Part shown: piece after piece, positions 1,247 to 23,332 of the stretch
How the letters are laid out: the number at the start of each line of letters is the position of its first letter
How positions within the stretch are numbered: position 1 is the first letter of the stretch
DNA from: Pigoraptor vietnamica
Lineage: Eukaryota > Opisthokonta > Filasterea
DNA: 23,497 nucleotides
Assembly (NCBI GenBank): GCA_943704525.1
Contig: CALSCQ010001276.1
Location: forward strand, 1-23,497
Reading direction: 5' to 3'
The notes under the pieces: generated by a model
What the model saw: only the letters and a program-made list of their open reading frames with translations
The model's database searches: none
What the model was told of the DNA's origin: nothing
Position numbers and translations under genes: made by a program

Positions 1247-3829
1247 ATGGCATCTATTGTCGACATCCACCTGGATGCCCTTGGCGACATTGGCGCGTTT
1301 CTCTCTTCCGCCGACCACCGCTCCCTCTCCTGCGCAACACGCGGTCTGCGCCGTGCAGCCGTCGCCCTGTGGCCTGACGACGTCGCGCGTTGTCTCAGGC
1401 GGCGCGTCGTGCGCGAGATGAGTGTCGATGCCGCCTTCTGTGCGCTTGTGAGAAAGACCCTTCTCGGTGGTCCCCTTGTGGCGCTTCCCATGCACGTGGT
1501 GGTCGAGGACTGCTGCGGTGCGAAGGTAGCACCTCTCTCGGAGACGGGATCGGCGACGGAGGGTTTCGCTGTGTGGGATGTGTGCCGTACGTGCGGTGTC
1601 CGCAAGGGCACTCCCGTTGGGGCCGCGAACTTCATGTACGAGCTGTCGTATGTCAGCGATTTCCACCGCGTCGATGTGAATGGCGCGTCGCTGCTACGGG
1701 ACGTATCTCCGCTCGTCTTCGTCCACACACTCGCGCTTCTTGGTTGCGGTGTGGTGGACATCTCGTGTTTGGCGGAGAGTGCGTCGCTCCGGAGGCTCGC
1801 GCTGTCGCAGTGCGACGGCATAACGGCAATCCCGCGCATAGCACAACTTCAGCGGGCGGAAATTCGCTGTTGCCCTGCATTGAGATCGGTCGATGCACTG
1901 GCACACGTCCGCGCGGTTGTGCTGGAGGGGTGCGAGGGCGTTCGCGACGTGAGCTCGCTCGCCAGCGTACATACGATTACGTTGCAGCACCGAGTGCGAC
2001 CTGCGGACGTTTCGGCGCTGTTTCTGGGCCGGGTGCATACGCTGGACCTGGACCACGTGACTATCCATGAGCTGCCGCAGGGCGCGCGCGTTCCCTCGCT
2101 CACACTCTTGTGCGTGCGCTTGTGTATCGCGCACGCGATCGACGAAGATGCCGTGGACTATTCGTCTCCGCGGGCGTTCAGACCGCCCTCCCCTCCTGCC
2201 GCGGGGTGCTTGACGCCCGTCGTTCTGGAGGACTCTGCGTTTTCGGCGGATTCGTCCGTTCCCATTGACCTCGCGCGCCTCTCGTTCGCGTCACTGTCCG
2301 TCAACCGCGGCGGCTGCAGGAAATTGCCCGACCACGTTGACCGCACACCTTGGGCCAGCGTCTGCGGCTTCGACGCGCTCGCAGCGAACATGAGCTCTGT
2401 ACGACTCCTTCTCGACCCCAAGCAACACTTCGATCTATGGTGGGCGGCGCACCTCGCGAGTGTGGACATAGAAATAGGGGGCTTCTACGGATCGAACGGG
2501 CCGAAGCTGTCGCTTGCGCCGCTCGCAAGAGTCCCGCGCGTGACCGTGCGCGTACGCGACGAAACTGTGTTCCGCGATTCCTCCGTGTACGGACTGCTCG
2601 CTGCAGTTGCCAGTGTTATGCAGGATTTGCCCGCCGACGTGCGCATGCAACGGCACGGCTGTGGCGCACTCGCCAGTGGGCGGTGGTCGGTTGGCGAAAA
2701 GGGCGACCGCATTTGGGACGTCGATTTTGCAAGCGCTGTTCTCTTCGCCATTGCGTCGTTTCCGACAGACGAAGCGGTGGTACGCAACGGCCTCAAATCG
2801 CTCACGAGGATGATTGCATCCAATAACCCCGTCTTTTTCAGTCAGTGCACGCCGGATTGCTTGGGAGCCGCGCGTGCCTGTCTCGAGAGGGAGACGGCGT
2901 CGCGCGACTGCGTGGGTGCCGCGCTTGCTCTGCTGTTGGGAGCGGCAGAAATCGCGTACTCCGCGGGGAAGGCGGACGTCGTGCTGCAACTGCGCAGTGC
3001 TCTCCCTCTCGGGGATTTGGCGCGTGTGGCCGTCCGCGCCGCGAATGCGTGGCCGCAGAGCACGACGGTTTTGGAGCCTGCGGTCGGAATTCTGCACATC
3101 TGCGCTCGTCTTGTGGTCGAGTACCGTCGCTCAATTGCGCACGACTACCGCTTGCAATATGTGAACCCGACCGATGTTGAGTATGTGAACCCGACCGATG
3201 TTGAGGCCATTTCTCTCGATCGCTCGTGGGTGTCGACGGCCATCCGTGCGGCTTTGGTACTCGCGCAGCGATACCCACTCGACGTTCGTGAGCAGACGGC
3301 GCAACGTCCCATGAACCTTCTGGCCACACTCGCGGACATTGACCGCAGTTGTGCTCAGGAGCTTGTGAAGGCAGGTGCGTTGGACTTTCTGCTGGAGCGA
3401 GCGGCCGCGTGTCTTGCCGGGCCTTACAACCGACATTTGGTTGAGGGTGAGAACGTGCATTTTCATGCCAATCGCCAGCGCTCGGACGGCTCGTGGGTTG
3501 TCCCTCTCAGCAGGCTTGCGCAGTACTCGCGGGACGTTGACGCCGACACCCCTGCGCTGCTTTCGGCGGAGCTGATATTTGACGTGGCGCGGCGACTGTC
3601 GCGGTGGGCCATCGATGCCGGGGAAGTCTTCAAGGGTGCGCTGGCACTCGTGCACGCCGGATCCTTTTTTTTCCCGTCGCCGCACGGTACTGGTCTGAGT
3701 CACGCTTGTGAGGACATGGAGAGAGGAATGCTCATATGGCGGGCCGTGCAGCGTCACCGTTTTGACCCCGACCTGGCCGGCGGTCGCCGCGGTGCACAGT
3801 CCCCACGATTACACGCAGTACTACTGTAA
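1247..3829 (+). CDS. F-box-like / leucine-rich repeat / ARM-like protein, copy A (860-codon open frame, tail lost)
   Basis: Single open frame of 860 codons starting at AAATGGC. Residues about 4-45 resemble an F-box (hydrophobic helix ending DIGAFL, then R-SLSC-ATRGLRR), which would bind Skp1 in an SCF ubiquitin ligase. Residues about 150-290 carry irregular leucine-rich repeats (LALLGCGVVDISCL, LEGCEGVRDVSSL). The C-terminal half is helical with ARM/HEAT-like stretches (LLATLADI...LVKAGALDFLLERAA). It is collinear with copy B (12993-9496, minus) from the first residue to RFDPDL near codon 842. After that, B-like sequence continues in another frame (see next entry), so the last 18 or so codons and the stop at 3827 look like the product of a frameshift. 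A 24-bp tandem duplication (3158-3205) repeats YVNPTDVE. Likely a pseudogene, or a gene giving a protein without its tail. The F-box and ARM assignments are by pattern only. Confidence 0.7.
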   Translation: MASIVDIHLDALGDIGAFLSSADHRSLSCATRGLRRAAVALWPDDVARCLRRRVVREMSVDAAFCALVRKTLLGGPLVALPMHVVVEDCCGAKVAPLSETGSATEGFAVWDVCRTCGVRKGTPVGAANFMYELSYVSDFHRVDVNGASLLRDVSPLVFVHTLALLGCGVVDISCLAESASLRRLALSQCDGITAIPRIAQLQRAEIRCCPALRSVDALAHVRAVVLEGCEGVRDVSSLASVHTITLQHRVRPADVSALFLGRVHTLDLDHVTIHELPQGARVPSLTLLCVRLCIAHAIDEDAVDYSSPRAFRPPSPPAAGCLTPVVLEDSAFSADSSVPIDLARLSFASLSVNRGGCRKLPDHVDRTPWASVCGFDALAANMSSVRLLLDPKQHFDLWWAAHLASVDIEIGGFYGSNGPKLSLAPLARVPRVTVRVRDETVFRDSSVYGLLAAVASVMQDLPADVRMQRHGCGALASGRWSVGEKGDRIWDVDFASAVLFAIASFPTDEAVVRNGLKSLTRMIASNNPVFFSQCTPDCLGAARACLERETASRDCVGAALALLLGAAEIAYSAGKADVVLQLRSALPLGDLARVAVRAANAWPQSTTVLEPAVGILHICARLVVEYRRSIAHDYRLQYVNPTDVEYVNPTDVEAISLDRSWVSTAIRAALVLAQRYPLDVREQTAQRPMNLLATLADIDRSCAQELVKAGALDFLLERAAACLAGPYNRHLVEGENVHFHANRQRSDGSWVVPLSRLAQYSRDVDADTPALLSAELIFDVARRLSRWAIDAGEVFKGALALVHAGSFFFPSPHGTGLSHACEDMERGMLIWRAVQRHRFDPDLAGGRRGAQSPRLHAVLL
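3158..3205 (+). repeat. 24-bp exact tandem duplication in gene A
   Basis: Two identical 24-bp units (3158-3181 and 3182-3205) keep the frame and duplicate the octapeptide YVNPTDVE. Copy B has no duplication at this place. Perfect identity suggests a recent slippage event. Confidence 0.9.
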
Positions 3830-4145
3830 CACGGATGATACAACTCGCGCTGCGTTGTCCACGTACATCGCGCGCAGTCCTCGACTGTTCTCCGTTATTG
3901 CCACGCGTGCTATTAGGATTGGCAGAATGGCCGCCGAAATCGGCCATGCCGGTGGTGGCTTCTCGTTTCTCTCTGCGGCGATGAGGGCTGCGCTGTCGCA
4001 GAATTGCCCGACACGTGCTGCGGACATTGACATGGCGAGGCCGTTTTCTTCCTCTCATACTGAGGAGTCGGCGCGCGCCTATGCCCTTGCGGCGGGTCTC
4101 GAAGAACTCGTTGCGGCTTGCGTAGACAAAGGAAGCGACGCCGAC
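3776..4145 (+). pseudogene. Out-of-frame continuation of F-box-like gene A, up to the block junction
   Basis: Downstream of codon ~842 of gene A, similarity to copy B continues in a different frame: STYIARSPRLF, then GHAGGGFSFLSAAMRAALSQ, matching SSYVARSPYLD and GRSGGGIVFLSEVMRASLSH in B. Similarity runs on to LAAGLEELVAAC and DADE (about 4145) and stops. The change of frame lies at about 3776-3800; a single-base indel explains it. I saw no convincing short intron there, as no donor/acceptor pair restores the frame cleanly. Immediately after it, minus-strand AMMECR1 coding sequence begins, marking the edge of the inserted block. Confidence 0.75.
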
Positions 4146-4445
4146 GAGGGGTTGTGCGCTGAACGTCCCGATGCATCCACGGAGCTGCCAATCGTCCTTG
4201 TTTTTCGAGTCACGCATCGTCCACGTCACAAACAGAGGGCTGGACAAATAAACACATGGATGCACACGTTAGTTCTGGCGCTTTGCGTGCACGCACATGC
4301 CGCTCACACGCGAGACTCACTAATACAGGTTGGAGAACGACGGCTTTCGCGGCGCAGGGCCTTCGCCAAGTTCACTCGCAACCACGTCGAAGCAGTACGC
4401 GCACATCTTCTCCGTTGCAACGCGTTCCTGGGGCTCCGCGGCCAT
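4146..4445 (-). pseudogene. AMMECR1: Truncated AMMECR1-domain gene, 5' half (exon 1 and part of exon 2)
   Basis: Exon 1 (4445-4327) begins MAAEPQERVATEKMCAYCFD and ends PRKPSFSN; exon 2 starts at 4239 with PLFVTW, then LRGCIGTFSAQPL. These are hallmark segments of the AMMECR1 family (EMC-YCFDVL..., PLFVTW, LRGCIGTF), a conserved domain of unsettled biochemical role found in archaea and eukaryotes. The intron 4326-4240 has donor GTATTA and acceptor TTTGTCCAG, phase 2 on both sides, and restores the frame exactly. Similarity stops at about 4146, where the other half of the domain (YALTSALKDSRF and beyond in relatives) should follow. There the plus strand is gene A instead. The gene keeps its start and presumably its promoter in the CA-rich spacer but has lost more than half of its domain. 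It can only be a fragment here; an intact copy may exist elsewhere. Confidence 0.85.
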
Positions 4446-5520
4446 GCGCACAGGGACACACACATGCGCACATTGACACACACATGCTCACAGTGACACA
4501 CACATGAGTACATCGACACACACTCAGGCGCACAGTGAGGCACATAGACGCACAGTGAGACACATAGACGCACAGGGACACACACTAACGCACACCAAGC
4601 GCACACAGGGACACACACAGACAGCACACGCGTGGGATGACACACACAGACACACGGACAGTCTGGCACATGCGCAGTGTGATACACAGTCGCTGGCACA
4701 TAGACGCAACATAGACATAGGGACACAGACAGACGTATGCATGTGCGGAGTGACGGACACAGACGCAAGATTGCACCACAAGCGGACTTGGCAGGGACAC
4801 ACACAGACACACACAACACGCGAGGGACTGACACACCCAGACGCTCCGCATGCGCTTACACCGAGATAAACCACGCAGCACAGTGCAGACGGCACACGGC
4901 AGATGCACACACGCCCGACGCACCACTGACACGCAGGGGCACCGGCAGATGGACGCACCACGCGCACAGAGACACGCAGACGGCGCACTGGCAATCCGAT
5001 GCGCCGCTGCGCAGTTCTCAATGAACTGATGAGACACACACTCGCACGCCGACGGCCGGCACACACTGGCACACACACAGGCACTCATGCACGCACGCAC
5101 ACTGGCACATACACAGGCACTCATGCACGCACGAACACACTGGCACACATACACGCACTGCCGCTCATGCGGCACGCACACACACACTGGCACGCATGCA
5201 CGCATGGCACACACACACACACGCACACATGCACGCACGCACACACTGGCACACACACAGGCACTCATGCACGCACGCACACTGGCACATACACAGGCAC
5301 TCATGCACGCACGAACACACTGGCACACATACACGCACTGCCGCTCATGCACGCACACACTGCAGGCACGCATGCACGCATGGCACTGACACACCGACAC
5401 GCACTCATGCACGCACGCACACACTGGCACACACACAAGCACTCATGCACGCACGCACACCGTGGCACACGCACGCACTCATGCATGCACGCACAATACA
5501 CACTGGCAGACGCACACTTC
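4446..5520. repeat. CA-rich degenerate satellite between AMMECR1 fragment and kinase gene
   Basis: About 1.07 kb of imperfect (CA)n and GCACGCACAC/GACACACAC words. On the plus strand it is almost only A, C and G with purine/pyrimidine alternation, the type of sequence able to form Z-DNA. Local sub-repeats of about 20 bp (CACATAGACGCACAGTGAG-like) occur at 4528-4575. It gives long open frames on both strands (HTHTGTH- or VCVCVPVC-like), which are composition artefacts. It occupies the divergent spacer between AMMECR1 (minus) and the nuclease-kinase gene (plus). Confidence 0.9.
5060..5350. repeat. 180-bp higher-order repeat within the CA satellite
   Basis: The segment 5060-5170 recurs without any difference at 5240-5350, an offset of exactly 180 bp, while the bases between them differ. 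This shows a recent segmental duplication inside older degenerate satellite. Confidence 0.85.
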
Positions 5521-5707
5521 TCTCACTGTCTTTCTTACCCGAACGCCGCGATTCTTGGCGAGGTGTTGGAGTCCAGACATGTGAACACTGACCCACCCCG
5601 GATGAAGATGAGGTCTTCATTTTTGATCACACCCTCTTCCTCTCTCCTTCCATCGCCGCATCCCTTCATCGGAGCGCGGCATCGGTGCGCCACAGCACTG
5701 CGCAGCC
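5521..5707 (+). promoter_or_regulatory. Presumed promoter and leader of the nuclease-kinase gene
   Basis: Non-repetitive 187 bp between the satellite and the start codon at 5708. It includes a pyrimidine-rich CTCTTCCTCTCTCC block (about 5632-5650), which could be an initiator or leader. The start context CAGCCATGG is a good Kozak match. No TATA box seen. Confidence 0.35.
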
Positions 5708-8423
5708 ATGGCGCAGCAGGGGGACCCCCTTGCGGAGGTTATAGAGAAGATTGGGAAGGTCGAGAGCAAGATTGATGCCCTCGAGAAGCGCATCGAACCC
5801 CTCCAGGCCATTCCGTTTGACCAGCGGACAGCCAGGCCGACGAAGGAGTTGGAGCAGCTGCGCGAGGAGAAGACCAAGCAGCTCGGCGTGCTGGAGCAGC
5901 TGCTCAAGAAGGAGAACAGGCTGAGTGCCGGTGAGTGCCCGACGTGGCCTGTCGCACACTCAGTGTCTATGTTTACTGCTTTTGTTCCCCGCCCTTCGCT
6001 GAAATTGCATCCCGTCTTTGTTTCTTACAGCGGCGGCGAACAGTGCGGGTGCGTCGACGACCGGTGAGGCCATCGCGTTTTTCTTGATTCCATGTTTGTG
6101 TGGTTGTGTGCGGTCGTTTTTTTTCCTTGTGACGGTGGCTCTTGTGCGCCCTTTTGCCCGTCGCAGTCCCCTGTCGGTGTCACGTGCGCGTGTGTCTCTA
6201 CTGTGCGCTGTGTCTTTGTTTCTGCTGTGCGGTGCGTCTTTGTCTGTGCTGTGCGGTGCGTCTTTGTCTCTGTTGTGCGCTGTGTCTTTGTCTCTGCTGT
6301 TGTGCACGTGGTGTGTGTGTATGTTCCTGTGTGTCTGTGAGCATGTTGCATTTTTTGTGCATGTGCTGGCATGTGCGAGCCTTAGTCAGCCTCTTCCAAG
6401 TCTGTATGCCCTCCCATGGTATCTCATGTGTGTGCATTGCAGTCGGTGATGCCGCCATAAAGAAGTACGTGGAAGAGATCGAAGCCAAATTGGACGCAAA
6501 ATGTGGGTTCAAACTGTGCGCCGAGTTGCTCTCCTTGTCTTCGTTGTCGTGCTCATCTCAAGCGGACGTGCAGACGCGCGTGCGGGCGTTTCCCTTCGCG
6601 GAAAATCGCATCCCTCTCAGTACGGCGATGTGGCGGAGACGATCACGACCGTCACTCCAGAGTTACCGGGCGAGATCCTCGGTGCTGGCAGCGTCGGCGA
6701 CGGGGAGTGGCTGGCGTTGAAGGAATTTCTCGAGCGCAAGCTCGACAAGAAGATTCTGGGCGAACTGGCGGCGGCGCGATCGCAACGCTCCAGCGTGCCG
6801 CCGCATGCGTCGGGCAGCCTTCCTACGGGAAAGCGCGTCTTTCGCAAGGGAGAGTGGACTTTCCACAAGGAAGCCTGCGTCCAGGCGTTTTACAACGAAT
6901 TGCTGGCGATTGTTGCGGAAAACAACTCGCCCGTTTTCGTAGCGCACGATCGTTCGCATCGCCACATGTATCCAGCGATGGACGGAGTGTACCTTCAGCC
7001 CGACCTCAATCTGGCGGTGGGGCACTGCGGAGGGAGATGGGTCGCGTCGGCCAGCGTCGGTGAGCTGAAGTTTGCTTTCGACGACTCGTCGAGGACGGAT
7101 GCGTTGTGCCAAGTAATGCAACGCTGTGCGGCGATGGGCGCGAACCAGTATTTCCGACAGACGGCCTGGTGTTTGATTGGCGATCGCAATTGCGTCGAGC
7201 TCGTGCATGTCGAGGGCATTGGCGGACGCATGCGCTTTTCGCGACGAACGGGCCTTCTACCCCTCTTTGATGAGGGCGACGACCATTTCACGCGCTCGCT
7301 CGGGCGAGGGTTTTTCGCGCTGAGGTCGTGGGCTCTTGCGAAGGCTGTTGACGTCGGCTATGCGATGTCGCTGCCGACTGAGCTCAGGCTTCCTGTGAGT
7401 GGAAACGCGGGGACCCTCGATGTTATCGAGGCGTTGTTCCTATCGTCGTCCGTCGTCGTTCTGCGCGGTTCGATGCGCGTTGGATCGTCGCCTGTAACGA
7501 CCGACGTTGTTGCGAAGCTGGTTGTCAAGGGCGAGCGCTCGAAACGGTTCGCGCAGGAGCGAAAAGCGCTTGAGCAGCTCAAGCACCCGTCGATACCAAC
7601 GCTCCTCGCGTTCGGCGAGAATGTCGATCTTAAGGGAAGGAGCTACTGTTTTCTGCTAACGACGCCGGCCTGCACCCACGTTTCCGAGGAGCTCGACGAA
7701 ACCTCTTACGTTTATCGTGCGATTCGGGGCGCGTCCAAAGCGCTCGAGTACGCGCACGAGAAGGGGTGGTTCCACGGCGACGTGAAGCCGTCCAATATCG
7801 TGTGCTCCGCCGACGCATCAACGGTGCAGTTGATCGACTGGGATTGCGCGCTGCCCGCCGGTGCGACCGTGGCGTACGTCGGCACTTTCGAGTTTATGTC
7901 TCTGCCGCTGATGCGGCGGTACCTGTCATCTGGCGCGCAATCGGTTAAAGACTATGCGTACAGCGCGATAGACGACTTGGACTCCCTGTTTTATACGGCG
8001 TTCTTCCTGATCTCTCGCATCGTTTCTCGTCGTTCGCCGGGGCACATCGCGTGCGTGTTCATTACGTCGAGACCGCAAGTACGTTCAGTGTCGCATCTGT
8101 TCGACGCTTCCTTGTCTTTATATCTGACATAACGTCTCAATTTGCGACTGCAGGCGGACTACCTTGTGCTCAAGGAGACCCTCTTGAACAACGAAACGCT
8201 GTTTAATCACGTGATCGACTCGATCGCCGACGTCGACGATGATTTCCGGAAGTTCATGAAAGAGGCCCGTGGCACGTTTGTTCAGCGAAGGCAAGTGCCG
8301 ACGCCGAGGGGGGTGAAGGCGCGCAAGAAGCGGGCGTCGGACTTGCTTGCGACAGTCTTTTCTAGCCTCGGTCTCGGTGACTTTGAGGACAAAGATGACG
8401 ACAGCACTGACCACGCCTTGTAG
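5708..8423 (+). CDS. Crinkler-like protein: coiled coil + PD-(D/E)xK nuclease-like domain + protein kinase
   Basis: Five exons, 5708-5930, 6031-6063, 6443-6502, 6574-8078 and 8154-8423, join in phase to 696 residues; donors are GTGAGT, GTGAGG, GTGGGT and GTACGT. Residues 1-75 form a heptad-like coiled coil (ELEQLREEKTKQLGVLEQLLKK), as in the header of Crinkler/CR effectors. Residues about 195-330 look like a PD-(D/E)xK nuclease fold: P248-D249 in QPDLNL and E269-x-K271 in VGELKF. A kinase domain follows (about 395-600): degenerate glycine loop, K420 (VVAKL), E434 on helix C, catalytic loop HGDVKPSN (D508, K510, N513), metal site D527 in DWD instead of DFG, and a helix-F-like DDLDSL. All key residues are present, so it looks active. 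The tail is basic, then acidic (EDKDDDSTD). Nuclease plus kinase in one chain is known in Crinkler-type proteins of fungi, oomycetes and some protists; fungal FunK1 kinases are also related. Substrates are unknown. The gene sits inside the block that splits gene A. Confidence 0.85.
6201..6296 (+). repeat. Four 24-bp tandem units in intron 2 of the nuclease-kinase gene
   Basis: Imperfect units starting CTGTGCG(G/C)TG at 6201, 6225, 6249 and 6273, each 24 bp. They make up part of the 379-nt intron (6064-6442), the longest in this gene. Open frames read through the array on both strands without meaning. Confidence 0.8.
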
Positions 8424-8430
8424 TTGATGA

Positions 8431-9076
8431 GGTGAAAAATTTATTCCGGCGACCCTTTGCGCCCTCGCATTGACTTCGATACTGGGAATTGAACTGTCAC
8501 GGGAGCCCACGGAGACGGATTCGAAAAAAAGGCGGAAGTGGCAGCGTGCACGTGCGCAAGGTATGCTGGCGGCCGATCTGTTGGGCGAGAGTTCCATCGA
8601 GGCGTTGCGCGTGCTTCACTGGGCAGTTGGAGCGATTGCAGAACACTCGCCGTGCGATGCGCTGCGCTCGAGCGGAGTGGCTGTCGCGGTTGGCGCAGTC
8701 GGTTTGTCTGGAATATCAGAAGTGGGATTGGGATCGCGAGGGGAACGGAAGCTCAGCGGTCGTTATCGACGGAAGCGGCGTGGTGCCGGCGATTCGCGTG
8801 GCGCACTCTCTGCTTGTTGCAATCGCACGGGGCGGACTGGTCGTCGCGTCGCGGCTGCGAGAGCAGTCTAGTATTTACATCGATTATGGCGCCTTTATCG
8901 CCGCTGCGGCTGTGTTTGCGCTGTGTGCGCTGGATCGTCAGCAGCGCGCAACTCTCGTCGGCGTCTCGGTGCACTCGCTGCGGATATTGTTATCGAAGAG
9001 CACGCCGAGTGTGGCGGAGGCCATGCACGCGGTGGCAGTGACTGCTCTTGGCGACCTGCAGCGGGAGCTCATGTGA
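8431..9076 (+). pseudogene. 3' end of an F-box/LRR/ARM-like gene, most simply the tail of gene A
   Basis: Starting at about 8446 the plus strand encodes PATLCALALTSILG, matching PATLCALAVTAAVG in copy B. It goes on with ALRSSGVAVAVGAVGL (B: GLRASGTLLSQTAGLV), then in another frame after about 8690 with IRVAHSLLVAIARGG, GAFIAAAAVFALCALDRQQRATLV (B: GSFIAAATILALCAVDGQQRASLV), and ends LGDLQRELM with a stop at 9074. It begins a few bases after the stop of the nuclease-kinase gene. Relative to B, roughly 45 codons are missing between the end of the 5' piece (4145) and this piece. At least one frame change inside it supports decay. It could instead be the remnant of a third family copy. Confidence 0.8.
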
Positions 9077-9495
9077 ATGATTTCTATGAATATTAGATTG
9101 CCGGCAGTTTGAAGACTGAGGCAGCTTCGCTGGGTGGCATGTTACGTAATAACTATTGTATGGAATTCGTCCGAGTTGCTGTTTGGGACTGAATGATTGG
9201 CCTCCCTGTTGTAAGTTTTGAGGGTGGACGCAATGCAGAAAGTGGAGACAGCGAGGCCAGTGGTTAACCCCGGTACAACAATAGCGATGACTGAGACTAC
9301 GCACTCCGCCAGCTACCCGTCACTTCCGCTGCCCTTAAGTCGTCCCTAACTGCCGGCAAAACTGAAGACTAGACTGTCACAATAAGTGGCGCCCGCTTTG
9401 GCAGGTAGAAATCGGTTTCCATACTCCCGGTGGCCGTCCGTGTATGTGTGTGTGTGTGTACGTGCCGTGGTGTGTGTGTGTGTGTCGCAATGGCC
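9077..9495. other. Spacer between the convergent family copies, with a (TG)n tract
   Basis: About 420 bp without a credible gene. It holds a TG-rich tract at about 9438-9486 and two similar words, GCCGGCAGTTTGAAGACT at 9100 and GCCGGCAAAACTGAAGACT at 9352. No canonical AATAAA is seen for either flanking gene. Confidence 0.6.
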
Positions 9496-12400
9496 TCATT
9501 GACAGGCAGGCGAGCATTCCATGGAACATGCGCCAACTCCGGACCTAAAATCATATCTGATCAATTCAATACAAGCAAGTTGTGAAGCTCGTCCAGCGCA
9601 GTACCAAAATCCGCCTGCGCAAACAATGCGATCGCACTGGCAGGTCGCGTCGCCCACAACCGGCGCAGCGCGCGCATCGTGTGACACGTCCTCGACGAGC
9701 GACGCGCGTTGCTGACCGTCCACTGCGCACAATGCAAGGATGGTCGCTGCAGCAATGAAGCTGCCTTGTGTGGGCGACAGAAACTGCTTCTCCGTCTCCG
9801 CAGCCAATAGCCCGCCCCTCGCGAGGACCCGAAGCAAGGAGCGCGCAATGCAAACCTCTGACCCAACACCGCCGTCTCTTGCCACTCGCTCGCCGCCCGC
9901 TTTCCTGCCCTTCAGCTTTTCGTAAGCGGGGAAAACCAACCCAGCTGTCTGCGAAAGCAAGGTTCCGCTTGCGCGCAACCCCTCACATGCCGAGTATACC
10001 GCGATCGCCTCGACCGACACGAAGAGCTCACGCAAGTCCACAGACTCTGGCGCCGCAACAGCCAACGAGCCAACGTTCCCCAGTTCCATAGGAATCGGCA
10101 CCAATGCCTTCAATCCCACCGCCGCTGTCACCGCCAGGGCGCAGAGGGTTGCGGGCGCCGCAGCGTCGCGATCTGGCCGGCACTTCGCAAAAAGCAGCAT
10201 AGACGCCGCGCGCGCAATGTCATGGAGGCACAACCGATGGTCGGAGTCCCACAACCGCTCCGTCCCAAGGCACGCGACGCAGTTCTCCAGCGCCATGTCG
10301 ACTGTGTCCGCGCACCCTCCATCCTCACCGGAAGCAATGAGCGCGCAGAGGCCCTCCGCAAGTTTGCAGAGGTGTTTGCGTTCAAGCTGCGCGTTTTCCC
10401 CGTCGCACTCGTGGGAGAGGGAGGCCCGCATAACCTCCGAGAGAAACACAATGCCACCGCCCGAACGGCCGATTGCAGTCGCAATTCCTTCCAGCGAAAA
10501 TATCGCTAGCGCTCTTTCCAAATCCAGATAAGGGCTGCGAGCGACATATGAGGACAGTCTTGTGAGGACGGCGGGCATACGGCTCCGAAAGGCGAGAGCG
10601 GAAGCCACTTCGAGATCGTAGTCGAAGCGGTGGCGATTCATGGCGCGCAAAATGAGGTCTTCATGTCGCGACTGGTCCATACCCGCAAAGGCGCGCTCTC
10701 GCGACGGGAACGTGGACTCTCCGGCGAGTAGCAGCTCCAGCAATTCCGAATAGCCAATGTCAGTGATGGCCCGCTGTGAGAGTTGCCGTGCCACGTCAAG
10801 CAGCGCATTGGCCGACACGAGCGCGGGCGCGCCAGTGTCCGAGTCGGCGCACGCGTACTGCGCGAGTCTGCCGAGAGGGATAATCCACGAGTTGTCCGCA
10901 AGTATGGAAGGGCTGTCCAGCCGCGCGGCGGCGCGCTCCAGCAGCATGTCAAGCACGCCGGCCTCCACGAGCTCCCGCGCGCACCTGCGGTCGATGTCCG
11001 CCAGAGCGGTAAGGAGGTTCATAGGGAGTTCTATCGAAGGCACGCGGCGGTCGAGAGGACAGCGTTGCGCGAGTGCCAGCGCCACGTCGACAGCAGTCGA
11101 CACCCACGAGCGTTCCTGGCGCACATTTGAGGCGACTTCGGGGAACACCGTGACGTTCTTAGATTGGATCACCCACAAGGGAAGATATCGACCATCTATC
11201 GGCGCCCTTTGTCGTCCGGCGAGACGCGGCATCGACGCGCAGAATTCGAATGTTTGCGCCGCAGCCTCCAGGACGGCCACGTGATCCGGCCACGCGCGCG
11301 CAGCATGAACGGCCGCGCGAGCCATTTCGTCCAGAGGAAGGGCGTCGCGCACTTCTTGCGTGCCATCATCCGCCCGTCTACAGTACGTGCTTACGGCCGC
11401 GTCAAAGAGCAGCGAAAGCGCCGCCGCTACGCACGCCGGCGGCAGCCCGTCCCTGCCAAGGCACGCGTGGGCGACCGCCACCCACGCTGGGTCGCACTGG
11501 TTACTTTGCAATTTGAAGTTCGGCGCAATCATCTTCGCCAGCGACCTCAGCCCGCAGAGCACGATCTCTTCGTCCGTCGGAAACGACGCGATGGCGCCGA
11601 GGACAGCGCTCGCGTAACTCTCGTCTCGGAAGCGGTCGCCTTTGCAACCGATGAACCACCGACGGCCGGCGAGTGCCTCACACCCGTGCCGCTGCACGCG
11701 CACGTCGGCGGGCGCCTCTCGCATGACAGTGGCGACCGCAGAGAGCAGTCCCCACACTGACTCGTTGTACCCACGCACAGTCACATATCGCACGTTCGCC
11801 AGCGGCGCCAGCGACAGCCCTGCCCCGTACGGCTCGATTTCAACGACCACCCTGGACAGGTGGCATGCCCACGAGACATCAAAGTGCACGTCTGATTTGT
11901 TGACAATGAGGCGAACCGACGTCATGGTCGCCGCAATGACGTCAAAGCCGCGCCGCGGCGCGTAATAGTCGGGGAAACTTGACACACCACCCGTGCCATC
12001 GTATGGCGGGAGCGGACTGTTGCACAGCGACAGCGACTTGACCGAGAGACGCGCAAGGTCCACGCTCTCATACCTCGTCCGCTGCGAATTAACGAAAGGA
12101 TGCTCTTCTCGAGAAAGTTGCACGAGCACCCCGAATAGCGTGAGCGAGTGAACGCGCGCACCCTCTGGCAAAGGCATGATCACCACCGAGTCCAGCACCA
12201 GCGAGTGCACGCGGCCCAGAAACAGCGCAGACACGTCCGTAAGTACACTGCTGAGTTTGATGGTGACAGTGCGCACACCGGCGAGGGGGCTCACATCGCA
12301 CACACCCTCGCACCCCTGCAAGATGACTTCGCGGGCGTGGGCCAGCGCATCGACCGACGTCAGCGCACGGCAGCGGCGAATCTCCGCTCGCTGAAGGAAC

Positions 12401-12993
12401 GGAATGTGTGGGAGCGCCGTTACGTTATCGCAATGCGACAGCACGACCTTCCGGAGCGTCGCACTCTGCCCCAGACACGCAATGTCCGACACGCCGCAGC
12501 CCTCAAGCACGAGCGTGTTCACGGAGGCAAGCTGCGACACGCTCTCCAACGACCGCACGCCCATCACGTCGACACGATAGAATCCGGCGACGCATGCCAC
12601 TTCGCGCGCTGCGACGGGAAGACGGGAAAAAGGCTCACGGGCACCGCAGACGCGGCATTCCGTATCGATCGCAAACCCTTCCGCCGCCGAACAGATAGTT
12701 ACGCGCCTGCCCCAATTTTGGCAGCAGTAGTCCTTTACTTCCGTGTGAATGGGGAGCGGCGCAAGGGGACCAAAGAGGAGGGTGTTGCGCACGAGCGCGC
12801 AGAAGGCGGCGTCCAGACCCATGGCGCGCACAACGCGCCGCTTGAGACTGACGGCGACATCGTCCGGCCACAGAGACACGGCCGTGCAGCGCAGCCCACG
12901 TGACACGCGCGAGAGGGAGCGGCGGTCGTCGCTGCAAAGAAATGCGCCAATGTCGCCGAGTGTGTCCACGGGGAGGTCGAGAAGGGACGCCAT
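9496..12993 (-). CDS. F-box-like / leucine-rich repeat / ARM-like protein, copy B
   Basis: Intronless open frame of 1165 codons. The start at 12993 is chosen because its MASLLDLPVDTLGDIG lines up with the first residues of copy A; upstream in frame there is only a GTG. Residues about 4-42 are F-box-like (LPVDTLGDIGAFL, RRSLSRVSRGLR), suggesting Skp1 binding and a role as SCF substrate receptor. About 145-285 are irregular leucine-rich repeats (LVLEGCGVSDIACL, VILQGCEGVCDVSPL). A CxxC pair (ECRVCGA) lies before the repeats. The C-terminal ~800 residues are helical with ARM/HEAT-like runs (LLTALADI...LVEAGVLDMLLERAA). The last ~45 codons (below about 9695) do not match copy A's tail, whereas another frame there does (MRALRRLW...LDELHNLL, ending near 9561). 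So B probably has a small indel that replaced its native C-terminus. Substrate unknown; family recognition by pattern only. Confidence 0.75.
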   Translation of the reverse strand: MASLLDLPVDTLGDIGAFLCSDDRRSLSRVSRGLRCTAVSLWPDDVAVSLKRRVVRAMGLDAAFCALVRNTLLFGPLAPLPIHTEVKDYCCQNWGRRVTICSAAEGFAIDTECRVCGAREPFSRLPVAAREVACVAGFYRVDVMGVRSLESVSQLASVNTLVLEGCGVSDIACLGQSATLRKVVLSHCDNVTALPHIPFLQRAEIRRCRALTSVDALAHAREVILQGCEGVCDVSPLAGVRTVTIKLSSVLTDVSALFLGRVHSLVLDSVVIMPLPEGARVHSLTLFGVLVQLSREEHPFVNSQRTRYESVDLARLSVKSLSLCNSPLPPYDGTGGVSSFPDYYAPRRGFDVIAATMTSVRLIVNKSDVHFDVSWACHLSRVVVEIEPYGAGLSLAPLANVRYVTVRGYNESVWGLLSAVATVMREAPADVRVQRHGCEALAGRRWFIGCKGDRFRDESYASAVLGAIASFPTDEEIVLCGLRSLAKMIAPNFKLQSNQCDPAWVAVAHACLGRDGLPPACVAAALSLLFDAAVSTYCRRADDGTQEVRDALPLDEMARAAVHAARAWPDHVAVLEAAAQTFEFCASMPRLAGRQRAPIDGRYLPLWVIQSKNVTVFPEVASNVRQERSWVSTAVDVALALAQRCPLDRRVPSIELPMNLLTALADIDRRCARELVEAGVLDMLLERAAARLDSPSILADNSWIIPLGRLAQYACADSDTGAPALVSANALLDVARQLSQRAITDIGYSELLELLLAGESTFPSRERAFAGMDQSRHEDLILRAMNRHRFDYDLEVASALAFRSRMPAVLTRLSSYVARSPYLDLERALAIFSLEGIATAIGRSGGGIVFLSEVMRASLSHECDGENAQLERKHLCKLAEGLCALIASGEDGGCADTVDMALENCVACLGTERLWDSDHRLCLHDIARAASMLLFAKCRPDRDAAAPATLCALAVTAAVGLKALVPIPMELGNVGSLAVAAPESVDLRELFVSVEAIAVYSACEGLRASGTLLSQTAGLVFPAYEKLKGRKAGGERVARDGGVGSEVCIARSLLRVLARGGLLAAETEKQFLSPTQGSFIAAATILALCAVDGQQRASLVEDVSHDARAAPVVGDATCQCDRIVCAGGFWYCAGRASQLACIELIRYDFRSGVGACSMECSPACQ

Positions 12994-18496: not shown

Positions 18497-21400
18497 TCAG
18501 TCCCACTCGTCCTCCGCCACGCCCTCCATGAGGTCCTGAGGGAGAGTGTCGCCCGCGCGCTCGCTCAGCGTGGCAACCATTGCGTTGAGGAGCTGTGAAG
18601 GAAAGTGGCGTGTCAGATAAAGTACAGACAGTCGCTCACTCTGAGTTACGTGTCACAGATGCTGTGTTGTGGGGGGAAATCCGACTGCCCTGTGACGAAT
18701 AATGTCTCTTGTGCGCACGTGCGCCGTGTGTGTGTGTGCGTGCGTGGGTGCGTGTATTGTGTGTTGCGTGTGCGTGCGAGAAGATTTCTCCACGCACCTT
18801 CTCCTTTTTCTCCTCAGGTGTGTCCTCCTTCGGATTGAACGCGGCAAACTTGCGCTCCTTCGGCGCTTCCACGGGCGCTTCCGACACTGCAAAGGCAAGG
18901 AAAAACGATTAGCAACCACAGAAACGCAGGGAAGGAAGGAAATGAAAACAGCAACACACGACACAACCAAGGCCACAGTCACAAACGACCGCCATGCGCG
19001 AGTGTCGGCGGGCGAAGCAAAAACAAGTATTATTTGCAGGGGAAAAAAAAAGTTCATAAACGTTGAGTAAAAATGAAAAATATGACAGTCGCGGCCACGC
19101 ACTAAAGCGTGTTTCAGATAGACAGCCCCGCACAACACGGGTGACTTACGCTTCTTCATCCCGGCCGGGAGCAGCGAGACGCGCGGCTGGACCTTGTCGC
19201 TGCCCGCGAACCACTCGGCTGCGTCGTGCGCCGGCAGCCACTTTTGCACTGTGTCGGGGAACACATCGTCCTGGAAGTACTCTTTCTGCAAGCGCAACAA
19301 AGTTCGATACTCCGTCAGTGGATTGCAAGTGTTACGCAAGAATAGCAGCCCGATGGGGGTCCTCAGTCATCGTGTTAGACATGCACGACATACGACATAC
19401 ACACGCAACATAACGCATAGCACACGAGCCGCCCACGCAGCACACACACACACATGCCCGCTCATACACACGCAACACACAACACGCCCGACATACACAC
19501 GCAGCACAAAAACACAGCACACGCTCTCATGGAGAGCAAGGACGCGCAAGAGGTGCTCCCTCTTCGCGTGGGACCGGATGACGATCACGATCAAGGACGC
19601 GCAGGCGCAACACACAACACGCCCCCGCTCATGCACACGCAACACACGGCTCAGCACACTAGGCGCACCTTCGTGCGGGGAACGTGGATGCCGATGACCT
19701 CAATCGTCGACTGCGACAGCTTGAGAATGCGCAGAAACTCGACGTTCTTGACGTCGCACACGTTCTTCGGGAGGAAGGCGACGCCCTGTTGGATCACGTT
19801 CGTCTTGTACGGGGGGATGGGGTGCGCGTACGGAGCGTCGTTCGCAATCTCAAAGCAGTGAATGCTCGTGTCGCCCTGCGCGAGTGTCGCACAGAACGAA
19901 TTGTGAGCGCACGATTATGGGTGTGTGCGCGCATGTGCGTCTCTGCGTGTCAATCTCGCAACACATGGGACCCGTGGGATGAGACCATAAAGAGATAACG
20001 AACCGCTGCGTACACTGCTACTCAGAATGGAGGGACGCAGAGATCTCAGTTCGTGGAAGTAAGTCATAGGGTTGAACCCTCATCGACTCCCGCAGAGGGA
20101 AGCAGAGAGAGAGAGAGAGCACTCACCCGTCCATTGAGGAAGAGGAGGCCCGTGTCTTCGTCGTAGTGCGGCACAAGCACCGCAGGCGACACATCTACGT
20201 TGGCCGTTCCAATGGGCGACGAAATGTCGTCAGCCTTGAAGATGAACACTTGGCGCTCGCTCGACCTGCGCACGCATCCGAAAGCACAAGTGAGTCGCGT
20301 GAGCATTGTGTGTGTGGCCCGAGAAATCCACGTCGACGGAAAGGGGCGGACGGTCGTGGAATGGCGTTGTTGAAGCAGAGGAAAGCACAAGAGAGGGTGT
20401 TGTGTGTTTGCAACGCACCTATCGAAGCCGGTCGTGGCAATGTAGCCCGTGTTCCCGAGCCATGCCACGCGGGAGCCGCGCGATCCGACGTGGTTGTTGC
20501 CGGTCTGCGAGAGCGGCAGCGTTAGATAGGTTGTGCATGTGTCTGTGTGCGTATGCGTGTGTGCATATGCGTGTGTGCTTGTGCGTATGCGTGTGTGCAT
20601 GTGTGTGTGTGTGTGCGTGTGCGCGCATATATGTGTGCATGCGTGTGTGAGAGTGTGCATGTGCGAGTGTGTGCGTGCGTGCGCGTGTAATGTGTGCATG
20701 AGTGCGTGCGCCCCTGAGGGACCCTGGCCCTCCCATTCAGCCGACCTGCAGCAGCTTCCCCGTGCGCGCATCGAATATCCGCAGGAGCTTGTCCTTGGCA
20801 ACCGTTGCGAGGAGCTTTCCGTCGGGGCTGAACTCCATCCCGAAGAGCTGGAGAGACAGAATAAGCGTTGCCGCCGAAAATGAGTAACGAGTACGTAACA
20901 AAGGCCATATCACAATAGCAAGCACACAAGAACCAAGAAAAAAATAAAGACCGAAAGGACCGCACACAGGTTACGGGAACGTACATAACTCACACAGATG
21001 CAAACGCGCACTATCCTACCACGGACAGCAATACACTGCACACAAGCGCGCCAACGCGCATGCACGCACGCACCTGGTCGCCGTGGCCCTCGATCGTGAT
21101 GAGCTCCTTTCCGGTGGAAAGGTCCCACAGCTTGACGAGGAAATCGTAGCCGGCCGTTGCGACGACGTCCCTGGCAGTCGTGTGGAAGCGGATCACGTTG
21201 ATCTGAGAAAGAAAAAAAGACGGCGTTGTGAGTTGAAGCGTGTAGCCCAAAAGTCGCCAACAGACGGACGTCTTGCGACAAGACAATCGCTGCACGCAAG
21301 GGCGTTGCGCATGTGTAGCACACGACATGAACGGGGTGTTTTCAAAGCACGCGCGATTTTGCGCTCTAATACAAGACGAGTAGACCCACCTTCTGCTTGT

Positions 21401-23052
21401 GGCCGACGAGGCGCTGCGCAGGCTCCGACACGGTTTCCTTGATTCCGCCCTCGGGGATCTTCCACACGCGGAGAGAGCAGTCCTCGGTTGCTGTCGGGCA
21501 TTGAGTGGGTGAGGTCACACCGCGAGGGCAAGCCAATAGGACGATAAGTCATGAGCGTGCGCGGCCTGCGTTCGTGCCGTGAAGGCGCTTGCGTATTCGT
21601 GTGTGTGGTAGCGTGTCGTTGTGTGTTAGAGTGTGTGAAAGTAGCATGTGGGTGGGTGGGTGGGCGTGCATGCACGTGCGAACAGCAGCCCTCCATTCGC
21701 GCAATACCGCGCAGACATACCGACGACAATCATCGACTCGTCAAACGGATTCAGCGCAAAGTCAAGGACAGCCGAGCCGTTCTGCAGAACAGGCGGAGAG
21801 TTGCCGACGCGCGGGTTGGGCGCGAGTGGCAGCACGCACACTTGGCCACCGGGGCCGGTGAGAGGGAACGCAACAAACTTGGTGTTGGCCTGTGGAAGCA
21901 TGGTTCAGCTTAGATCAAATACAGTGGCCCATCGACCCCACTAGTAAGTTAGGAAGATGGGAGTTGAGGGTTCATCATAGGGCGTGTGCGTATGTGTGTG
22001 TGTGTGTGTGTGTGCGCGTGTGTGCGCGCGTGTGTCTGCTTGCGTGCGTGCGTGCGTCAGTGCCTGTGTTTTGGGGAAATACACGCACTGCACAGCGCGC
22101 AGCCACGTAAGCGCACCTGGAGAACGTTGGCCTCTCCCGGGAGCGCGGGGCTGAGTCCCACAATTCCGTCAATGTTGTTGCGCTTGTGCTGCGGAATGCC
22201 CTCAATGTGATTGAATTTGGACTGCCGCTTCACCTGGCGCATCGTCGCTGGAGAGCGCGGCGGCTCCTGTGAATGCACGCACGGGAAGAGCGGAAGGGGG
22301 TCAGCAACTACTGCGGGCGCTCACACAAACGCACATGGACAATTGGAGGAAGACGGTCAGCAACTGCCGCAGGCCGCCAACGCAACACACATGGACAAGC
22401 GAGAGGACGAGGAGGGCCACCAACAAGTTCACACTGGATAATACTAGAGAGGTCACTCGGTATCGAGGGCGATGGAATGTGTGCGCACGTGCGTGGGGTG
22501 GCGAGCGACAACGACCACTGCGAACGTGACCAGCAACCCACAGGGGACGCGGCAGGGCTGGCTGTGCTGCCGCCAACTGAGAGCGCCGCCATTGGCTTCT
22601 GGATGTCGGCGGCGCGGGCAGGCGCGGGCGACGCAGGCCCGGGGGACGACGGCGCGACAGCGGATGCAGAGGGCGTAAGCGACGACGAGGCCGACGAAGG
22701 CGCAGGGGCAGCAGATGCGGACGAGACGGGCGCGCCGGATGACTTGGGGCGCTTAGCGGGGTCGAGTGGGATGCGCGACTGCGTGCCGTTCTCGCCCGCG
22801 GCCCACGCGGATGCGCCAATGGGAGCGATGCCGGAGAGGGTGTCGGGGAAGAGGTCGTCATGGAACTCGCGGTGAGACTGAAAGCGGTTGCGGTGGGTGA
22901 GCGAGGGGCGCGGCAGACACACAGAAGCAGAGCATGCAGATATCGGCCATACAACGAAAAGGACACCACACGCTGACAAAAATATCGACGGGCAGCGGAG
23001 TCTCTTTGGGGGATACCGAGTTTGTGCGAGTGTGCGTGTGTGTGTGTGCGTA

Positions 23053-23148
<96 letters not shown>

Positions 23149-23332
23149 GTGTGTTTGGGGGAAAGGGTATGTGTGTGAGTGCCCACCTTGCGCGGCACTT
23201 CGTACGAGATGGGCACGACGGCCTGCTTTGTGAGCTTCAGAAGGCGCACCACTTCGCACGCCATGACGTCGACGGCGCGCTTCGGGACAATCGTCATGCC
23301 ATAGTTGGGCGAGTCGGTCGCCGTCACGGGCG
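18497..23332 (-). CDS. CORO7: Coronin-7 (POD-1 type, two beta-propellers), 3' part of gene
   Basis: WD40 protein of actin and Golgi traffic. Thirteen visible exons, all in phase: 23332-23187, 22877-22542, 22266-22117, 21889-21721, 21490-21390, 21202-21074, 20847-20746, 20504-20419, 20265-20127, 19875-19669, 19285-19150, 18886-18798, 18592-18497; 627 codons plus a split one. The first propeller ends with GMTIVPKRAVDV...EVPRK and FHDDLFPDT. An Ala/Ser/Pro-rich linker of about 85 residues follows. The second propeller starts QVKRQSKFNHIEG and holds WD-type blades (VWKIPEG, LVKLWDLSTGKEL, LRIFDARTGKLL). It ends KEYFQDDVFPDT, a charged segment, then LLNAMVATL, LPQD and EGVAEDEWD at the stop. That tail matches human CORO7 closely and is the Arp2/3-type acidic motif. 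Two copies of the F-DD-FPDT hallmark prove the tandem type. Donors vary (GTGCGY, GTGGGY, GTAAGT, one GTCGGC at 20745). The first propeller lies beyond the right edge. Confidence 0.95.
18716..18782. repeat. TG-rich tract in last coronin-7 intron
   Basis: Degenerate GTGTGTGCGTGCG words within the intron 18797-18593; CA-type on the coding strand. Confidence 0.8.
19380..19660. repeat. CA-rich degenerate tract in coronin-7 intron
   Basis: ACACACGCAACACA-like words across the intron 19668-19286, interrupted by a non-repetitive patch (about 19530-19600) in which CAAGGACGCGCA occurs twice. TG-type on the coding strand, unlike the other coronin introns. Confidence 0.8.
20521..20705. repeat. TG-rich degenerate tract in coronin-7 intron
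   Basis: GTGTGTGCGTATGCGTGTGTGC-like words fill most of the intron 20745-20505, up to the acceptor region. Confidence 0.85.
21583..21675. repeat. TG-rich and GGTGGGTGGG tract in coronin-7 intron
   Basis: Degenerate TG words followed by TGGGTGGGTGGGTGGGCG, a short tetranucleotide run, in the intron 21720-21491. Confidence 0.75.
21985..22062. repeat. TG-rich tract in coronin-7 intron
   Basis: TGTGTGTGTG and GTGCGTGCGTGCGTG runs in the intron 22116-21890. Confidence 0.85.
23030..23155. repeat. (TG)n microsatellite in coronin-7 intron
   Basis: Nearly pure TG from about 23055 to 23146 with degenerate flanks, in the intron 23186-22878. CA-type on the coding strand. Confidence 0.95.

Follow-up and report, generated by a model that had tools for sequence, protein, structure and literature searches.

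In the filasterean Pigoraptor vietnamica, a gene of a dispersed F-box-like family (gene A) is split between positions 4143 and 8446 of contig CALSCQ010001276.1 (assembly GCA_943704525.1) by a patchwork of pieces related to different contigs. The window analyzed here, 23,497 nucleotides, is the entire contig (C522; the assembly comprises 1395 contigs and 32,526,649 bases, and its other contigs are named in the same manner). The insert consists of an internal fragment of an AMMECR1 gene, CA-rich satellite DNA, and a cassette with an apparently intact gene for a putative nuclease-kinase; 146 bp of gene A are missing at the site. These data suggest that the interruption probably arose when a double-strand break or gap was repaired with filler DNA taken from two or three unlinked donors. 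The relevant features are as follows.

1247–4143, plus strand: left part of gene A, F-box-like family, from alignments to paralogues B and C574; open to 3829
4144–4145, no strand: left junction, two bases given to neither side; at most 1–3 bp of microhomology
4146–4443, minus strand: internal AMMECR1 fragment, 96% identical to C917:8988–9282
4146–4239, 4240–4320, and 4321–4443, minus strand: part of AMMECR1 exon 2, intron 1, and part of exon 1, respectively; bounds read from the sequence
4444–4767, no strand: CA-rich satellite piece of a dispersed family (C990, C763, C87); right edge soft (4767–4791)
4791–5540, no strand: CA-rich upstream flank of the cassette; relatives at C1167 (74%), C1366, and C808
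5708–5930, plus strand: kinase gene exon 1, predicted coiled-coil header; splice model and header relatives
6031–6063, plus strand: kinase gene exon 2; GT-AG splice model, identical in C808
6443–6502, plus strand: kinase gene exon 3; GT-AG splice model
6574–8078, plus strand: kinase gene exon 4, ExK (nuclease-like) region and protein kinase domain; splice model, alternative end 8087
8154–8423, plus strand: kinase gene exon 5, stop codon 8421–8423; splice model
8424–8445, plus strand: remaining 3′ end of the cassette; shared with C1365 to 8444, with C574 homology from 8446
8446–9067, plus strand: right part of gene A; C574 alignment and DNA search
9496–12993, minus strand: paralogue B, the neighboring family member; open frame of 1165 codons

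The edges of the insert are set by a paralogue on C574, the closest relative of A among the matches listed (73–88% identity by piece). The left part of A aligns with positions 352–3169 of C574 L017 (2374 of 2788 aligned bases identical) and the right part with positions 3316–3945 (511 of 616); the bases absent from A, L017 3170–3315, amount to 146 bp, or about 49 codons. A preliminary description of this DNA had placed the interruption from about 4145 to about 8446, which is borne out against C574, and had put the missing target at about 45 codons, a loss that is confirmed with its size corrected. It had also recommended a search for unsplit members of the family, and of 14 other family loci tested, 10 show an alignment to C574 that runs on past both split points; the remaining four, and B, show partial alignment there. 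A DNA search of the assembly with the right half of A (8446–9480) returned only itself, C574 at 80% identity, and one 33-bp match, and thus no unsplit near-identical copy. The neighboring B had been put forward as both frame and date for the insertion; at 48% protein identity to A (421 of 881 columns) it is too distant to serve as a date, and C574 is the better yardstick. Relative to C574, A carries frameshifts outside the insert (+4 at 3779–3782 and −2 after 8679), and because of these and the interruption itself A is, as judged from its sequence, now a pseudogene; the first half of the C574 copy also holds frame breaks of its own. A perfect 24-bp tandem duplication lies within the open frame of A at 3158–3205.

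The first piece of the insert is 298 bp of AMMECR1. The preliminary description was right about its identity and minus orientation; what it took for a truncated gene is an internal fragment, with neither the start codon nor the 3′ part of its parent. Only two places in 32.5 Mb match this piece, the window and C917, and the match to the latter has an E value of 1.2e-134; for these reasons it is not plausibly a chance match. Nine substitutions among 295 compared bases (about 3%) and two indels separate the two copies. The satellite piece that follows, about 324 bp, has relatives on C990 (87%, query 1–321), C763 (85%, query 4–324), and C87 (79%, query 1–292), with the 40 best of 1199 candidates scored for the query 4444–4767, and the matches to C990 and C87 begin exactly at 4444. 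Identity to C808 across this piece is just 68–69%. It is probably a separate satellite piece, though its border with the second satellite piece is soft and it may be part of the cassette donor. The second piece, the CA-rich flank of the cassette, has counterparts ahead of the C808 and C1167 headers, and a further one at C1366. The CA tract had been proposed as a fragile target site; it arrived as part of the insert and therefore cannot count as evidence of one.

The remainder (5540–8444; about 3.65 kb when its own upstream satellite is counted) is a cassette whose intact five-exon gene is made up of header, ExK region, and kinase. A near copy lies on C808 (92.8% identical over 6209–8396 and about 80% over 5315–6295) and a decayed copy on C1365 (89% over 7034–8444); C808 departs from the window sequence from 8396 on. 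The relatives of the insert therefore lie on different contigs (C917; C990, C763, and C87; C808 and C1365), contrary to the earlier proposal that one chromosomal fragment had been captured. The corresponding expectation of an intact AMMECR1 gene beside a second kinase copy is likewise disappointed, as no such pair was found and the kinase matches listed do not include C917. GT-AG introns fit both the kinase gene, by splice model, and the AMMECR1 piece, by its sequence; because introns are kept in both, copying took place at the level of DNA.

The middle junction (4443/4444) is sharp, and the right junction (8444–8446) shows an overlap of about 1 bp. Microhomology at the junctions is 0–3 bp, measured without the ancestral bases of A and hence imprecise. 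Neither a target-site duplication nor terminal repeats were found: the flanks share a direct match of 5 bp at most, ordinary when compared with 2000 random pairs, and the insert ends one of 4 bp at most, ordinary when compared with 1000 random pairs. An insertion with deletion, free of both kinds of repeat, had been described at the outset, and that description stands. Helitron ends comprise a 5′ TC, a 3′ CTRR, and a 3′ hairpin; no Helitron-like ends are seen in the letters at the insert junctions, and the last 50 bases of the insert fold no better than shuffles (z +0.80).

A GT-AG site search in the passenger gene gives five exons encoding 696 amino acids with one stop (699 with an alternative donor), and the gene is apparently intact and looks functional. 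Its main open reading frame (ORF) matches Pkinase (PF00069) at an E value of 4.4e-11, and all eight of the aligned members match this family. A search of a large protein set with the kinase ORF returned three distant kinase proteins (7999 candidates scored). In a seven-row alignment of the ExK region, whose window and C808 rows hardly differ, the residues D, W, E, Q, and R are invariant; six of the seven aligned relatives also keep the K of ExK. The region ahead of the kinase matches Pkinase_fungal at E values up to 5 in five of seven relatives; only the best of these matches (1.7e-05) passes the cut-off when that region is taken by itself. A nuclease fold in the ExK region finds no support from profiles or the PDB, a PDB profile search of it returning one chance-level match (E 1.8). 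The gene resembles FunK1 and Crinkler-type nuclease-kinases, and the nuclease label for its product is putative and unproven, drawing on the ExK motif and the reviewed Crinkler-RHS-type (CR) architecture. Header exon 1, compared with known header domains, gave weak coiled-coil matches below the cut-off only. The header module also turns up at C1189, C1387, and C1167 with this kinase exon absent, and in partial form at C992, C319, and C769. A single-sequence structure prediction for the ORF at 6501–8132 had a mean predicted local distance difference test score of 36.2 and was not used, and an apparent signal peptide at 6501 was dropped, as the splice model makes most of that stretch intronic. 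Intron 2 of the kinase gene contains a 24-bp minisatellite (6193–6300) that is found alone at many other contigs.

Between the window and C808, the kinase exon has a synonymous divergence (dS) of 0.100 and a non-synonymous divergence (dN) of 0.021. Across 342 codons polarized with C1365, the window branch carries 12 synonymous and 8 non-synonymous changes (p 0.0009), the C808 branch 16 and 9 (p 4e-05), and the branch of the frame-broken C1365 copy 11 and 18 (p 0.085). By these counts the kinase exon has evolved under purifying selection, though part of that history may predate the insertion. No purifying selection is seen in the header exon (dN 0.228, dS 0.113), for which an omega of 2.0 is not significantly greater than 1 (p 0.19); non-synonymous odds there are 11 times those in the kinase exon, whereas synonymous density is alike (p 0.79), and protein identity between the window and C808 is 57% in the header exon (5708–5930 vs L032) as against 95% in the kinase exon. 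Gene A and its C574 relative are separated by a dS of 0.26 and a dN of 0.12 (803 codons). Because the AMMECR1 divergence (about 3%) and the kinase dS (0.10) are both below this dS of 0.26, the insertion is, on these estimates, later than the split of A from C574, and the two divergences make a single later event possible.

Repair with filler DNA fits the unlinked relatives, the kept introns, the lost target bases, the sharp edges, and the lack of element ends. Break repair was also the best fit according to the preliminary description, and is supported by the edges against C574, the lost target, and the absence of duplications and repeats. A double-strand break or gap, which we infer from the 146-bp loss, would have opened in A and would then have been closed, perhaps in a single event, by filler copied or captured from unlinked loci: the 298 bp of AMMECR1, the satellite piece, and the roughly 3.65-kb cassette. 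The pathway may have been end joining with filler or template switching by a polymerase, and the outcome would be a pseudogene that houses a functional-looking passenger gene. Several points weigh against this explanation. A single event is unproven, and divergence is greater in the kinase pair (dS 0.10) than in the AMMECR1 pair (about 3%); either the C808 copy was not a recent direct donor, or the pieces arrived at different times. The exons of the AMMECR1 piece (4 substitutions in 217 bases) seem more conserved than its intron (5 in 78 compared bases, about 6%), and, small as these numbers are, a neutral copy's own branch should show no such bias. Additionally, a third-party locus in which the pieces were already joined may be missing from the assembly, and microhomology is poorly measurable without the ancestral bases of A.

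The most serious alternative is a Helitron-type or other mobile element that picked up the AMMECR1 piece together with the kinase cassette and inserted as a unit. Capture of gene fragments by Helitrons is reported (PMC6544945, PMC4289320), and according to a Crinkler review (PMC5289972), Helitrons have been proposed as shufflers of Crinkler genes in Phytophthora; the genome's single Helitron Rep match (C319:2742–3476, E 3.2e-16) shares its contig with a partial header module (C319:11172–11790). However, the insert ends in neither the TC nor the CTRR of a Helitron, its 3′ terminus does not fold as a hairpin beyond chance, 146 bp of target are gone, and the 3′ ends of the C808 and window copies differ, all of which makes this origin unlikely. 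A series of separate insertions, or a joint move from a locus where the pieces were already joined, would accord with the greater divergence of the kinase pair, and the CA-rich DNA ahead of the C808 header indicates that at least the cassette and its flank moved together. This, too, we regard as improbable, as the AMMECR1 piece exists only in the window and on C917, no joined pieces were found elsewhere in the assembly, and the piece abuts the edge of the lost target exactly.

A chimeric assembly of the contig is rather less credible. Runs of G at the contig ends and the satellites, which are assembly hazards, would favor it; however, every piece differs from its relatives (96%, 87%, and 93% identity), so that no piece can be a plain misjoin of another contig of the assembly, A picks up again beyond the 146-bp gap as the same gene in the same orientation, and the assembly search found no unsplit near copy of A. 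Least credible is the suggestion, raised in the preliminary description, that the nuclease-kinase gene spreads itself as homing genes do, making the break that it fills. In its favor, the cassette is complete, its kinase exon shows purifying selection on the window branch, and its ExK motif is kept in six of seven compared relatives. Yet the C1365 copy adjoins an SGT1 gene, and C808 and C1365, which hold the two closest cassette copies, do not appear among the F-box matches listed (40 of 313 and 53 of 350 candidates scored, the best in each case); no target is shared, the target bases were lost rather than kept, and the nuclease activity is putative. Nothing found here supports self-spread. 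Equally remote is an extended version in which header-nuclease-kinase genes would be conflict genes, the nuclease of which would break the chromosomes of its own cell, satellite-flanked cassettes would serve as preferred filler, and dispersal into multicopy families would follow as headers diversify. If the cassette did cause its own spread, it would represent a new kind of selfish gene, but the present evidence is not in favor of this.

The family to which A belongs is dispersed: a search with B (40 best of 313 candidates scored, making all counts lower bounds) gave at least 63 matches, grouped into 32 loci that include A and B, and in the family search that gave the C574 match, the 53 best of 350 candidates were scored. 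The Pfam F-box-like domain is recognized in five of eight aligned members (best E 0.0022), while leucine-rich-repeat structures are matched by a profile built from all eight; a Pfam scan of A and B themselves gave no match, and a search of the large protein set with B returned none (8000 candidates scored). In a survey of the 32 loci for further split members, drawing on 62 of the 63 matches to B (one small match on C880 was excluded), the extra DNA separating matched pieces never exceeded 380 bp, with the limit that 11 of the loci, including A, are unmatched past residue 1000 of B, where splits like that of A would escape it. Family members (e.g., window 9496–12993) are single long open frames with no visible introns, though the genome has introns, and the homology between A and C574 begins 48 bp ahead of the start codon and stops at the 3′ end of the gene; the family may have spread via RNA copies.

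Elsewhere in the window, a DHHC palmitoyltransferase lies at 35–448, and a WD40 gene with a coronin-like look lies on the minus strand at 18653–23327 (WD40_4 at an E value of 5.6e-10 for one ORF). A tRNA scan of the whole window found none. The runs of G at the two contig ends (1–8 and 23480–23497) look like an assembly or library artefact. In two further loci of the assembly, L045 (C910) and L046 (C201), a protein kinase domain is followed by cysteine-rich stretches that by eye resemble a RING-between-RING ubiquitin ligase, with no Pfam match in those stretches at an E value of 0.001.

Under the favored explanation, repair with filler DNA, the window shows clearly, in the natural genome of a microbial eukaryote, how a site can be filled in with pieces whose relatives lie at two or three unlinked loci; one of these pieces is a whole gene whose kinase exon has been kept under purifying selection. 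By this route, conflict-type genes can be dispersed and members of multigene families inactivated with no transposon involved.

Compared with known systems, two whole paralogues of the passenger gene score above the cut-off for FunK1 (Pkinase_fungal, PF17667; 35.5 and 31.9 vs 24.1 bits), and the region upstream of the kinase matches profile positions 19–82; the window copy itself has no match at an E value of 1, a value at which six of eight members match, and its host is a filasterean. About one sixth of CR C-termini combine a restriction endonuclease (REase) with a kinase, according to the Crinkler review (PMC5289972). Like the CR proteins, the gene has an N-terminal helical header module, also found elsewhere without this kinase exon, followed by an ExK region and a kinase; unlike them, its header matches no known header family and its nuclease fold lacks profile or PDB support. 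The fast-evolving header exon and conserved kinase exon are the reverse of what that review reports for Crinklers (PMC5289972). Helitron gene capture is similar in that several intron-bearing gene fragments stand side by side with no target duplication, and dissimilar in that the window junctions are without Helitron-like ends and target bases were lost. The type of event itself is already known from plants and animals: there is precedent for filler DNA that carries genes (PMC3445842) and for insertions joined at natural breaks (PMC2567098). With filler-DNA and templated insertions at double-strand breaks, as described for plants, primate nuclear mitochondrial DNA segments, yeast, and cancers, the window shares unlinked donors, a target deletion, the absence of a target-site duplication, and little microhomology; it differs in that the break is deduced from its product, the host is a microbial eukaryote, and the donors include a whole intact gene together with its upstream flank.

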